Virus record (IMG/VR): IMGVR_UViG_3300035670_000884
Location: 1 to 31,747 of that record
Strand: one strand, 5' to 3'
DNA length: 31,747 nucleotides
DNA from: a virus
In this document: piece after piece, positions 26,733 to 30,252 of the stretch
How the letters are laid out: the number at the start of each line of letters is the position of its first letter
How positions within the stretch are numbered: position 1 is the stretch's first letter
The notes under the pieces: model-generated
The model's input: the letters and a program-made list of their open reading frames with translations, nothing else
The model's database searches: none
Told to the model about the DNA's origin: nothing
Translations under genes and position numbers: made by a program

Positions 26733-26778
26733 AAGAATAGCTGCAAATTTTTTTGATCCATGGTGTTTTTAACTAATT

Positions 26779-26802
26779 AGCCCCCTCTGGGTAGAGGGGG
26801 CT
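26779..26802 (-). terminator. GC-rich hairpin after GHKL ATPase gene
   Basis: AGCCCCCTCT / AGAGGGGGCT, 4-nt loop. The flank TGCAAATTTTTTTGATCC recurs near 28387. Confidence 0.75.
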
Positions 26803-26810
26803 TTAGGTTC

Positions 26811-28211
26811 TTAGATGATTGTTACATCTTGACCAAGTTGTGATGTGAACTTGGCAATAATCTCTTTTGAAGTTCTCAATGATTCAGGGTCATGCAAGAA
26901 TTCTGAGAGAGTATTTTCCAATGCTTGCTTGACGTGCTTCTTATTCACTTTATTGCAAGCATATCTAGCAAATCTTTCATCAGGGGATGATGTACCGTTG
27001 CCTTTGAACGGGTCCATCTTTCTTACTGTTTTGAAGATTGATTTAGCCAGTTCATCTAACTGACTTGTAAGACTCATTTCAGTCTTGACATTATTCACGC
27101 CAAATGCTTCATCTAATTCGGAAGTCATTTCAATCTTCACACGAATCAGAGCAAATCTGGAATGACTTGTACAGAATGCATTCCATGCAGTGTTATTTTT
27201 CCAAGTAACATCTGCATCACTTTTTAATTGCTCTATGGTAGTTTCTGCAAGTTCAGTTGAAATGGGTTGCTCTTTTTTAGTCAAGTGTAATCGACCATTT
27301 CTCTCAATATATACACCAGCATTAGGTTGGGTTAGAGGACGATAATGAATATCACCACGTTGCCACAAGTAGTATGTCACTGGCACTTCAAATACTTCAT
27401 CAACACCATTTATGTTTACTGTATATGAGAAGATTTGTTTGACATACTCTGATGCACCAGAGAAAGGACTTAATGGTAAGACTTCTACTAGTTTATTGAA
27501 ATCAGTGCCAATGTAAAGTTTATCACCTTCAATCAAGAATTTTTCAAAGGTTTCACCAAAAACAGCACCAAAACTACTTTTTATGTTGAAAGGTTCGTAG
27601 TTTAATTTTCTCTTCAATTGAGAAAGGATTTCAGAGTTGACATTTTTGAAAACATTCATAGTACCATGATTAGCATGACTACCATCTTCATCAATCATGT
27701 ATGTAGTCCAATACTTACGTAAGGTTTCAATCATAGGTTCAGATGTTCCGTACTCTACTCTGTAAACCGTAGCAGTATATTCCTGTGTAATCTCAATCTT
27801 TGAAGGATTGTAATCTACAGCATGAATAACATCAGATTCAACTTTGGAAATCGTAAGTACACTACCACCAAGACGGGAGACTACATTCTTCATTCCATTT
27901 CCGAATCTCCCAAGATTGCGACGCTTCTTGTTAGCAGTCCATCGGTTGTCGCCACCATTCTTAGTAGAATAGTTATCAATGTACATCTTATGGATTTTAT
28001 CAGAAGAGATACCAGTTCCAAAGTCTAAAGAAATCAAGACAGTCTTCTTGGGATTCTCAAGGTCTGGTGCAAGAAAGAGCTTTATAACACTAGACTCACT
28101 GTCAAAGTGATTATCAAGGTTATCCTTTAGGGAGGTCAAAAGTGTATGACCTGATGCTCGCTTGCCAGCAAAGTTAGGTGCTGGGGTAATGTCACGATTT
28201 TCAATTAACAT
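26811..28211 (-). CDS. GHKL-fold ATPase (MutL/MORC/Hsp90-like), variant N-box
   Basis: 466 aa. N-box region GHTLLTSLKDNLDNHFD with the Mg-coordinating Asn at N31; G1 box D63-FGTG; lid/G2 box G101-RFGNGMKNVVSRLGG. A second domain (about 200-330) has VYIERNGRLHL, like the transducer region of MORC/MutL-type proteins; the C-terminus is helical. The position four before N31, a general-base Glu in most family members, is Ser (S27), so hydrolysis may be slow or use another residue. It has a 40-nt leader with GAGAGAAG. A second, different GHKL ATPase lies upstream on the same strand. Likely a nucleotide-driven clamp acting on DNA or proteins; target unknown. Confidence 0.85.
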   Translation of the reverse strand: MLIENRDITPAPNFAGKRASGHTLLTSLKDNLDNHFDSESSVIKLFLAPDLENPKKTVLISLDFGTGISSDKIHKMYIDNYSTKNGGDNRWTANKKRRNLGRFGNGMKNVVSRLGGSVLTISKVESDVIHAVDYNPSKIEITQEYTATVYRVEYGTSEPMIETLRKYWTTYMIDEDGSHANHGTMNVFKNVNSEILSQLKRKLNYEPFNIKSSFGAVFGETFEKFLIEGDKLYIGTDFNKLVEVLPLSPFSGASEYVKQIFSYTVNINGVDEVFEVPVTYYLWQRGDIHYRPLTQPNAGVYIERNGRLHLTKKEQPISTELAETTIEQLKSDADVTWKNNTAWNAFCTSHSRFALIRVKIEMTSELDEAFGVNNVKTEMSLTSQLDELAKSIFKTVRKMDPFKGNGTSSPDERFARYACNKVNKKHVKQALENTLSEFLHDPESLRTSKEIIAKFTSQLGQDVTII

Positions 28212-28257
28212 AGTTTGCTTCTCTCAGTTTATGTGCACTTTATGGGGTGCTGAATAT

Positions 28258-28286
28258 AATATAACATATATCAAAATGGCATGCAA
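28258..28286 (-). promoter_or_regulatory. Promoter of 26811 ATPase gene
   Basis: Minus strand TTGCAT, 17 nt, TATATT. Confidence 0.78.
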
Positions 28287-28354
28287 GTAAAAATGAAAGA
28301 AATATCAGATTCTGGAATATTTATTTTCTAAAAATATTTTTGCAAATAATTTAC

Positions 28355-28376
28355 AGGTATGGTAGTAACCATACCT
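28355..28376 (+). repeat. Promoter-like palindrome t
   Basis: AGGTATGGT/ACCATACCT, AGTA centre; plus TTGCAA-N17-TAGTAA. Confidence 0.83.
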
Positions 28377-28423
28377 TGAGTGGAACTGCAAATTTTTTTT
28401 GATCCCTAGTGTTTTTAAACAAG

Positions 28424-28451
28424 TAAGCCCCATCCTCCGGGATGGGGCTTA
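28424..28451 (-). terminator. Hairpin after Gre-like gene
   Basis: AAGCCCCATCC / GGATGGGGCTT, 4-nt loop; same downstream cassette as at 26779. Confidence 0.78.
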
Positions 28452-28454
28452 TCA

Positions 28455-28880
28455 TCACGCTTGTTGTCGTGTTCTTGGTGTGGGCGATATGTCAAGTATA
28501 GAATAGTCGTTACCATTACATGTAAAGGCTTCTCCTACTTGTGCATATTGAAGAATCTTACCTAGTGATGATTCCACACTGATGATATTCTTGTCTGGGT
28601 TTACCAAAGTACTTTCTTTGACCAGTAAAAAGTTGTAAGTAGTGAATTCATTCAGATTGCGCAACCGAATTCGCATATTAACATTACTTGGCTTAGTCGG
28701 TTTAGGATTCTGGTCTGCAATGAATACAGGCAATGGTTTTGTTTGGCGGGATGTTACAGGCTTGCGACTTGCATCTATGACATCATAGATAGTGCGGTCT
28801 TGACCTGATTTGAATGAGTCTATCTCAGCTTGAATGCGTAGATTCTGGATTTCAGTGTAGGAAAGATTCTTGATATACAT
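28455..28880 (-). CDS. GreA/GreB C-terminal-domain-like protein
   Basis: 141 aa from ATG 28880 (AAGGAT nine nt upstream). N-terminal helix (LRIQAEIDSFKSGQ), proline/lysine linker (PKPTKPSN), then residues 70-132: MRIRLRNLNEFTTYNFLLVK, ISVESSLGKILQYAQVGEAF and YSILDIS. This follows the FKBP-like C-terminal domain of Gre factors (iSv-SPlGkALlgk-vGd, yeIl-I). It lacks the Gre N-terminal coiled coil, so it may bind RNA polymerase without cleavage activity, or use the fold otherwise. It follows the 28927 ATPase in one operon with a strong hairpin between them. Confidence 0.68.
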   Translation of the reverse strand: MYIKNLSYTEIQNLRIQAEIDSFKSGQDRTIYDVIDASRKPVTSRQTKPLPVFIADQNPKPTKPSNVNMRIRLRNLNEFTTYNFLLVKESTLVNPDKNIISVESSLGKILQYAQVGEAFTCNGNDYSILDISPTPRTRQQA

Positions 28881-28893
28881 TGTTTCATCCTTT

Positions 28894-28920
28894 TTGGGGA
28901 GGAGGTTCACTCCTCCCCAA
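28894..28920 (-). repeat. Intercistronic hairpin
   Basis: TTGGGGAGGA / TCCTCCCCAA, 7-nt loop, immediately before the Gre-like gene's AAGGAT; no T tract. Could reduce or stabilise downstream expression. Confidence 0.65.
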
Positions 28921-28926
28921 TTCGGT

Positions 28927-30252
28927 CTAGTTCTCAGCCAGTGCCTTGAACTCGTAGAGTTTCTCAAGTGCTTGACGACCAGTGAGTTCGTCAACATTAA
29001 GGCTCTTCAGTTCAAAGAGGACTGGGTGTACCTTGGCAGGTCTTTGAGGAGCATCGACAGAGATTCGATTGCGTAGGTCTTCGACCTTTTGCAGTTCCTT
29101 CTCTTGACGATTCTTCTCTCGTCGGGCATTGTCTTCAGACTGATGAATGGATTGGAAGTCAGAGAGTTTGCCCTTAATCCAATTCTTCAACTCCTTGTGC
29201 AAGATGACACAATCATCCTTCTGCACATTCATATCAAAGACATAATCGTCCAAGATGCCACCCTCATAGGTAAGTACCCATCGGAAGGGGTTGTTGATTG
29301 GAGTTTTCTCGTAGATGCCAAGCATTGCACCCTTGGACAATCCTCGATTGTTGCGAACCAACAAGCCACCCTGCATAGCATCTGATGGACGTTGCAGTTT
29401 GGTGAATTCACGCTTCTTGTTAGATTGATGAATCCAAGACATTTGCAACGTAACCTTTTCATTACACTTATTACCATTGGAGTCTTTGGTAATGAAGTAT
29501 TCATAAACAGGCGATGTTTCCTTGGCATCCTCTGCCTCAAGGTAGTCATACCAGAGTACCTTGTTGCTCTTGAATTGGTTGTCAAGACCATAGGTGTAGA
29601 GGTTTACGGCATCACGCTTGTGATAGAAAACAGTAGCAAGGTGATGACGGACTTTGCGAATCATATCCAGTGCTTTATCTGGTTCAGTCTTCAACTTGGA
29701 GATGACTATCATTGTACCAGATTCGTTAGCACCAAGGTAGTTAGTTAACTTGGCACTCTCATTGCTAGTGCATAGCCGACTTGAGTTAATATGGTTATCT
29801 GAATGAGCAGAGTGTTTCATCTTCTCATCCCAGTCAATGTAAGAGTACAAGTCACCATCTTCGCCACGAGTGAAGACATCAATATGATTGCCAAGTGCCA
29901 AGCCTGATGCCAACAAGCCCATACCAAAGAATCCTGACTGGGTTTTAGTGTTGCGAACACGACCAGTGGATGCCGGAATCAACGCCTTGTGCAACTGGAA
30001 CTTGTTCATTCCCGTGCCATTATCTACGATGGAGATGGAGATAATGCTTCGTCCATCATTGCGAACTTGCTTTTCAGTGCGCTGTTCTTCAGTGAAGTAG
30101 ACATGAACATCAGTTGCCTGAGCATCAAGTCCATTATCAATAAGGTCAGCGATAGCTGATTCTACTGAGTGTCCAAGTTTACGAGTGGCATTGAGCAGAG
30201 CCAAATAGTCTGGCATATGCTTTTCAAAATCAACGAGAGTTACTTTCGACAT
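28927..30252 (-). CDS. GHKL-fold ATPase, MORC/MutL-like
   Basis: 441 aa. N-box SAIADLIDNGLDAQA (D36 at the general-base position, N40), G1 box VDNGTGM (D77), lid GFFGMGLLASGLALG (G107-G112), then a transducer-like region with GGLLVRNNRGL and a lysine/glutamate-rich coiled segment near 370-395 (EDNARREKNRQEKELQKVED). Such stand-alone GHKL proteins occur in restriction, repair and conflict settings. AAGGG precedes the ATG after a leader of about 40 nt. First gene of an operon with the Gre-like protein; a second GHKL gene follows downstream under its own promoter. Heteromeric action of the two is plausible, not shown. Confidence 0.88.
   Translation of the reverse strand: MSKVTLVDFEKHMPDYLALLNATRKLGHSVESAIADLIDNGLDAQATDVHVYFTEEQRTEKQVRNDGRSIISISIVDNGTGMNKFQLHKALIPASTGRVRNTKTQSGFFGMGLLASGLALGNHIDVFTRGEDGDLYSYIDWDEKMKHSAHSDNHINSSRLCTSNESAKLTNYLGANESGTMIVISKLKTEPDKALDMIRKVRHHLATVFYHKRDAVNLYTYGLDNQFKSNKVLWYDYLEAEDAKETSPVYEYFITKDSNGNKCNEKVTLQMSWIHQSNKKREFTKLQRPSDAMQGGLLVRNNRGLSKGAMLGIYEKTPINNPFRWVLTYEGGILDDYVFDMNVQKDDCVILHKELKNWIKGKLSDFQSIHQSEDNARREKNRQEKELQKVEDLRNRISVDAPQRPAKVHPVLFELKSLNVDELTGRQALEKLYEFKALAEN

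Follow-up and report, generated by a model that had tools for sequence, protein, structure and literature searches.

Prokaryotic MORC and paraMORC ATPases belong to restriction–modification operons (PMC2292703), and the S5 motif of the MORC family is GhXhhpXXRhl (Iyer 2008). VcSduA (paraMORC3) has a C-terminal PD-(D/E)XK nuclease (DUF4263) (PMC12137116), while MzaB is the MORC-type ATPase of the MZA anti-phage system. Among phage GHKL ATPases, RIIA appears in a list of jumbo-phage counter-defence genes that are poorly understood (PMC7824862). On the transcription side, the globular domain of GreB binds with high affinity to the β′ rim helices of RNA polymerase, and HelD has both an NTPase and an arm that resembles Gre (PMC7749165). 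We found no literature description of a GHKL ATPase paired with a Gre-like protein, in agreement with an earlier note on the DNA studied here, which had called such a pairing unfamiliar.

Three minus-strand genes in an uncultured phage

The window (the whole stretch of DNA analysed) is a complete 31,747-bp IMG/VR virus record. It comes from a large, uncultured virus of bacteria, whose family comprises jumbo phages with contigs of up to 358 kb. The three open reading frames proposed in the earlier note are real and all lie on the minus strand, where they read in the order A, Gre-like gene, B. These genes and the nearby elements are:

28927..30252, minus strand: A, 441-aa MORC/MzaB-like GHKL–S5 ATPase (HATPase_c_3 and MzaB profiles; boxes aligned over 50 relatives)
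28896..28918, minus strand: hairpin GGGGAGGAG-loop-CTCCTCCCC in the A/Gre spacer, without a U-tract (RNA fold −23.2 kcal/mol, z about −5)
28455..28880, minus strand: Gre-like protein, 141 aa (PF01272 1.2e-4, Gre profile 22.7 bits, alignment with the copy in relative G022)
28424..28451, minus strand: terminator-like hairpin closing the A–Gre unit (12 pairs, then CTTGTTT; fold −22.9 kcal/mol)
28355..28376, no strand assigned: palindrome AGGTATGGT-N4-ACCATACCT before B, one copy of a repeat at many gene junctions of the window
26811..28211, minus strand: B, 466-aa MORC-like GHKL ATPase with N-box D30...N34 and its own upstream region (HATPase_c_3; homologue in relative G007; AF2 model)
26777..26801, minus strand: hairpin GCCCCCTCTACCCAGAGGGGGC after B (fold −21.5 kcal/mol, z −5.1)

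Relatives were reached through sequences other than the three genes, since A, B or the Gre-like protein alone as query against viral contigs, annotated phages and genomes returned nothing close. The intergenic palindrome led to G007, a 358-kb phage contig, and more loci of the same phage family were reached from flanking genes. These kin records are mostly fragments, and gene absences given below refer mainly to the junctions read.

A and B are distinct MORC-like ATPases

The assignment of A and B as GHKL ATPases held, with matches to Pfam HATPase_c_3 of 4.8e-18 for A and 2.9e-6 for B. Both have complete ATP-binding boxes (N-box acid and Asn, DxGxG, GxxGxG and GT), which places them in the GHKL superfamily. 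In an alignment over 50 relatives, the boxes of A are N-box D36...N40, D77xGxG81, G107xxGxG112 and G179T180, and K345 is its S5-domain lysine, invariant in a 7-sequence alignment (A6). The nearest NCBIfam match of A is MzaB (8.8e-16), which is under the equivalog cut-off (bit score 57 versus 850). B had been said to carry Ser in place of the general base (S27 before N31), but the 50-relative alignment revealed a register error of three residues: the N-box is D30...N34, and its acid is Asp in 49 of the 50 aligned relatives; the exception is the G007 homologue of B, with Glu. The S5 segments of A (GGLLVRNNRGL), B (GVYIERNGRLH) and the G007 homologue (GVYFYRDGRLH) are close to the MORC motif, and none is a strict match. 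B was modelled with AF2 from 12 sequences (pTM 0.69), and the best PDB matches of the model were MORC3, MORC4 and MORC2 (E about 1e-12). The MORC-type GHKL and S5 fold of B is read from this AF2 model, and the alignment behind it held MORC-like relatives, so that the fold match is not fully independent.

A and B are not close copies, as had been noted; BLAST aligned just 69 residues at 25% identity. In a tree of 128 sequences, the two A copies (support 1.0) and the two B copies (0.998) formed separate lineages. The nearest relatives of A outside its own pair were phage ATPases within replication operons (node support 0.80–0.83), which points to a role in DNA replication as much as to a role in conflict. 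One such MORC-like ATPase (locus L015, 5953–7581) lies in the annotated gene order DNA polymerase A, unknown, gp32-type single-strand binding protein, ATPase, Dam-type methylase and UvsX-like recombinase, and comparable loci (L018, L020, L021 and L025) have a like gene order. We also considered a C-terminal WNxxHPF motif as the mark of a missing domain and dropped it, as it is present in only 18 of the 128 relatives.

The middle protein carries a Gre-like C-terminal domain

The Gre C-terminal-like domain that the earlier note saw in the middle protein was upheld by sequence profiles, whereas a length of 180 aa was not. A start at 28997 (180 aa) would overlap A, and the alignment of the two relatives begins at the ATG at 28880, which is preceded by AAAAAGGA and gives a 141-aa protein without overlap. 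Against the Pfam GreA_GreB C-terminal domain (PF01272) the protein scored 1.9e-4 with the original start and 1.2e-4 with the corrected start, both under the Pfam gathering cut-off. A Gre factor profile built here gave 22.7 bits, whereas the highest score among 2000 shuffles of the sequence was 7.2 bits. When the two phage Gre-like copies were compared with this profile by hhalign, the probability was 94.7%, and NCBIfam also detected the Gre C-terminal domain. The protein therefore has, by sequence profile and below the Pfam gathering score, the FKBP-like C-terminal domain of Gre factors. AF2 on the single sequence produced no fold (pLDDT 35.5), and the assignment thus rests on the profiles.

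The profile match begins at position 70 of 145, and the Gre C-terminal loop reads IS-x-x-S-x-x-GK-x-L. Where the Gre loop has S-P, the window copy has S-S, and the G022 copy keeps S-P. An N-terminal helix-like segment, E-I-x-N-x-RIQA-x-I-x-SF, is common to both copies. The N-terminal coiled coil and acidic tip of Gre factors are absent from the middle protein, as is the ENxEY-type region. The G022 protein had a weak PADLOC match to PDC-M22A (0.003). Separately, short Gre-like genes, several of them in tandem, occur in a Phycisphaerae genome (G011 contig 2, 9460–11851; L154, L165, L167 and L168).

A and the Gre-like gene form a conserved unit that excludes B

In G022, a relative within the phage family, a 448-aa homologue of A is followed after 46 nt by a Gre-like gene, at a different site from that in the window. 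Identities to the window copies are 38–40% for A and 30% for the Gre-like protein, where other shared proteins have a median identity of about 60%. The A–Gre gap is 46 nt in the window as well, and both spacers contain a strong G-rich hairpin, GGGGAGGA...TCCTCCCC, without a U-tract (−23.2 kcal/mol in the window, −26.3 kcal/mol in G022; z about −5). The GGGGAGGAG stem occurs without mismatch at no other place in the window. The short gap and the hairpin lacking a U-tract support the co-transcription of A and the Gre-like gene that had been suggested.

Two copies of the pair are known, from 2 of the kin contigs that were searched; they belong to a single phage family and occupy different sites. 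At about 120 more distant A-like loci in viral contigs and genomes, there was no Gre-like neighbour within 5–6 kb. Since the pair is kept in two relatives at two sites with a 46-nt hairpin spacer, A and the Gre-like protein are a conserved two-gene unit in this family of jumbo phages.

Of the expected co-occurrence of all three families, the A–Gre part stood (window and G022) and B as a member did not. G007 holds a B homologue alone at the junction occupied in the window, without A–Gre, and B was not found alongside A–Gre in G022. In the window, B is set apart from the pair by the terminator-like hairpin. B is therefore a separate accessory MORC-like ATPase gene outside the A–Gre unit. The G007 homologue is full length and about 29–32% identical to B, compared with a median of 74% for other proteins. 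About 10 kb from it, G007 encodes a 718-aa RIIA-like GHKL protein (L064, 2601–4757).

The genes lie in a variable region

The junction between orthologues of an 87-aa and a 184-aa protein spans 3827 nt in the window, where it holds A–Gre–B, and 1734 nt in G007, where it holds the B homologue only. At the same junction, other relatives have 54 (L066), 75 (L068), 81 (L173), 81 (L174), 132 (L176), 129 (L175) and 3 nt (L171). In G022, the interval next to the A–Gre–B site contains an EcoRI-type restriction endonuclease gene (L175, 6317–7159; PF02963, 5e-20), and in L177 a ResIII-type helicase gene with its neighbours stands before the same 110-aa gene. The junction lengths, together with the endonuclease and helicase genes in relatives, indicate that the region is variable and carries conflict-type genes; these surroundings suit a conflict gene.

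The palindrome before B belongs to a hairpin-forming repeat, AGGT..GGT-N4-ACC..ACCT, which is present in at least 16 copies at gene junctions between 10899 and 28376 of the window. Changes in its arms are compensatory (99.3% of cells paired, with 9 two-sided changes where shuffles expect none), and the palindrome is present in relatives too. A promoter-like 44-nt element, TTGACA/TTGCAT...TATATA...TGATATACT (family D8), occurs at 11 sites between 11377 and 23897, before many small genes. The window also encodes a pilin-like DUF1559 protein with an N-terminal methylation motif (318–1286), which is 83% identical in G022 (L190, 15709–16686) and is thus a conserved phage gene. As DUF1559 is a family typical of Planctomycetes and their allies, the gene is a possible hint at a host in this group.

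A possible transcription-directed clamp and its alternatives

Our leading reading, to which we give a probability of roughly 40%, is that A is a clamp brought to RNA polymerase by a Gre-like adaptor and used in conflict with the host or with other phages, with B as a parallel conflict ATPase. A would dimerise and act as an ATP-driven DNA clamp of the MORC/MutL type, and it would do so without the nuclease or helicase partners that its bacterial relatives have. The Gre-like protein would use its Gre C-terminal domain to dock on RNA polymerase, as we infer from the globular domain of GreB, which does so (PMC7749165), and its conserved N-terminal segment to bind A. The adaptor could thereby deliver the clamp to a transcribing or stalled polymerase. 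By closing on the DNA in an ATP-gated manner, the clamp would then block, evict or silence transcription. The silenced target would most likely be competing DNA, of the host or of a rival phage. The effect would resemble that of HelD, in which an NTPase is joined to a Gre-like polymerase-binding part, but split over two proteins. B would probably act in parallel, with a similar clamp action.

The variable region favours this conflict role, whereas the nearest outside clade of A favours replication. A and the Gre-like protein might instead work in replication, recombination or repair of the phage's own DNA, as a MutL/MORC clamp whose Gre partner clears or marks polymerase at fork collisions. 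The phage ATPases of the nearest clade of A have a gp32-type single-strand binding protein on one side and a Dam-type methylase with a UvsX-like recombinase on the other, with a DNA polymerase A gene nearby, but node support for this clade is moderate. A–Gre itself is away from replication genes, and its occurrence resembles that of accessory genes, in 2 kin contigs of those searched and at differing sites; we consider a replication role unlikely. The strong divergence of B between relatives (29–32% against a median of 74%) is what an arms race would give, and it would suit counter-defence, in which A and B, as pared-down MORC/MzaB-like subunits, form inactive complexes with a host MORC-type restriction system such as MZA and so poison it or act as a sponge for it. 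The resemblance of A to MzaB (8.8e-16; 1.6e-22 for the G022 copy), without the associated nucleases, fits this too. However, the catalytic boxes are all intact, which a decoy would not need, and the Gre partner is left unexplained; we think such a function distinctly improbable. Most doubtful is a single three-gene complex in which A and B would pair as a heterodimeric GHKL clamp served by the Gre-like protein as adaptor. A, the Gre-like gene and B are adjacent on the same strand, and both ATPases are intact and of one broad class, yet G007 has B without A–Gre, G022 has A–Gre without B, and a terminator-like hairpin lies between them.

Returning to the adaptor and clamp, the more specific proposal that a Gre-domain adaptor steers a MORC-type clamp to RNA polymerase for transcription-guided silencing of competing DNA is a tentative one, which we consider unlikely.

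Comparison with known systems

A aligns with MzaB along the GHKL and S5 domains (58 bits in PADLOC for the G022 copy), and both have Asp as the N-box base, but the MzaB model has 480 positions compared with 441 aa for A, and the C-terminus of A is different. True MZA loci (L003–L005) were compared, and none of the neighbouring ORFs tested beside A, the Gre-like gene and B was a Z1, PD-(D/E)XK or AIPR gene. Since no nuclease, helicase or Z1/AIPR gene accompanies A–Gre–B among these ORFs, the locus is neither an MZA system nor a MORC restriction operon. Like the prokaryotic MORC and paraMORC proteins (PMC2292703), A and B combine a four-box GHKL ATPase with an S5 domain and have a mobile, patchy distribution. 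They only approximate the strict MORC S5 motif, as does the G007 homologue, and the A unit has a Gre-like partner in place of a helicase, endonuclease or methylase. Neither A nor B has a Pfam nuclease match, in contrast to VcSduA/paraMORC3. RIIA shares the GHKL ATPase, which forms its N-terminus, but reaches about 700 aa through a large, variable C-terminal part, compared with 441 aa for A and 466 aa for B; this size difference and the separate RIIA-like gene that G007 has besides the B homologue rule out a RIIA identity.

The middle protein shares with GreA and GreB the C-terminal domain with its IS..S..GK.L loop. Unlike them, it has neither the N-terminal coiled coil nor the acidic tip, and no transcript cleavage is therefore expected. 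HelD (PMC7749165), which recycles RNA polymerase, is alike in idea only, as an NTPase with a Gre-like polymerase-binding part; its NTPase is of the UvrD type, in one chain and without homology to A. Prokaryotic MORC-type ATPases are known mainly next to the helicases and nucleases of restriction systems, and eukaryotic MORCs act in the context of transcription. A MORC-type ATPase whose only conserved partner resembles an RNA polymerase docking domain offers a minimal, testable link between MORC proteins and transcription, which, if true, would give prokaryotes a counterpart comparable to eukaryotic MORC-based silencing.
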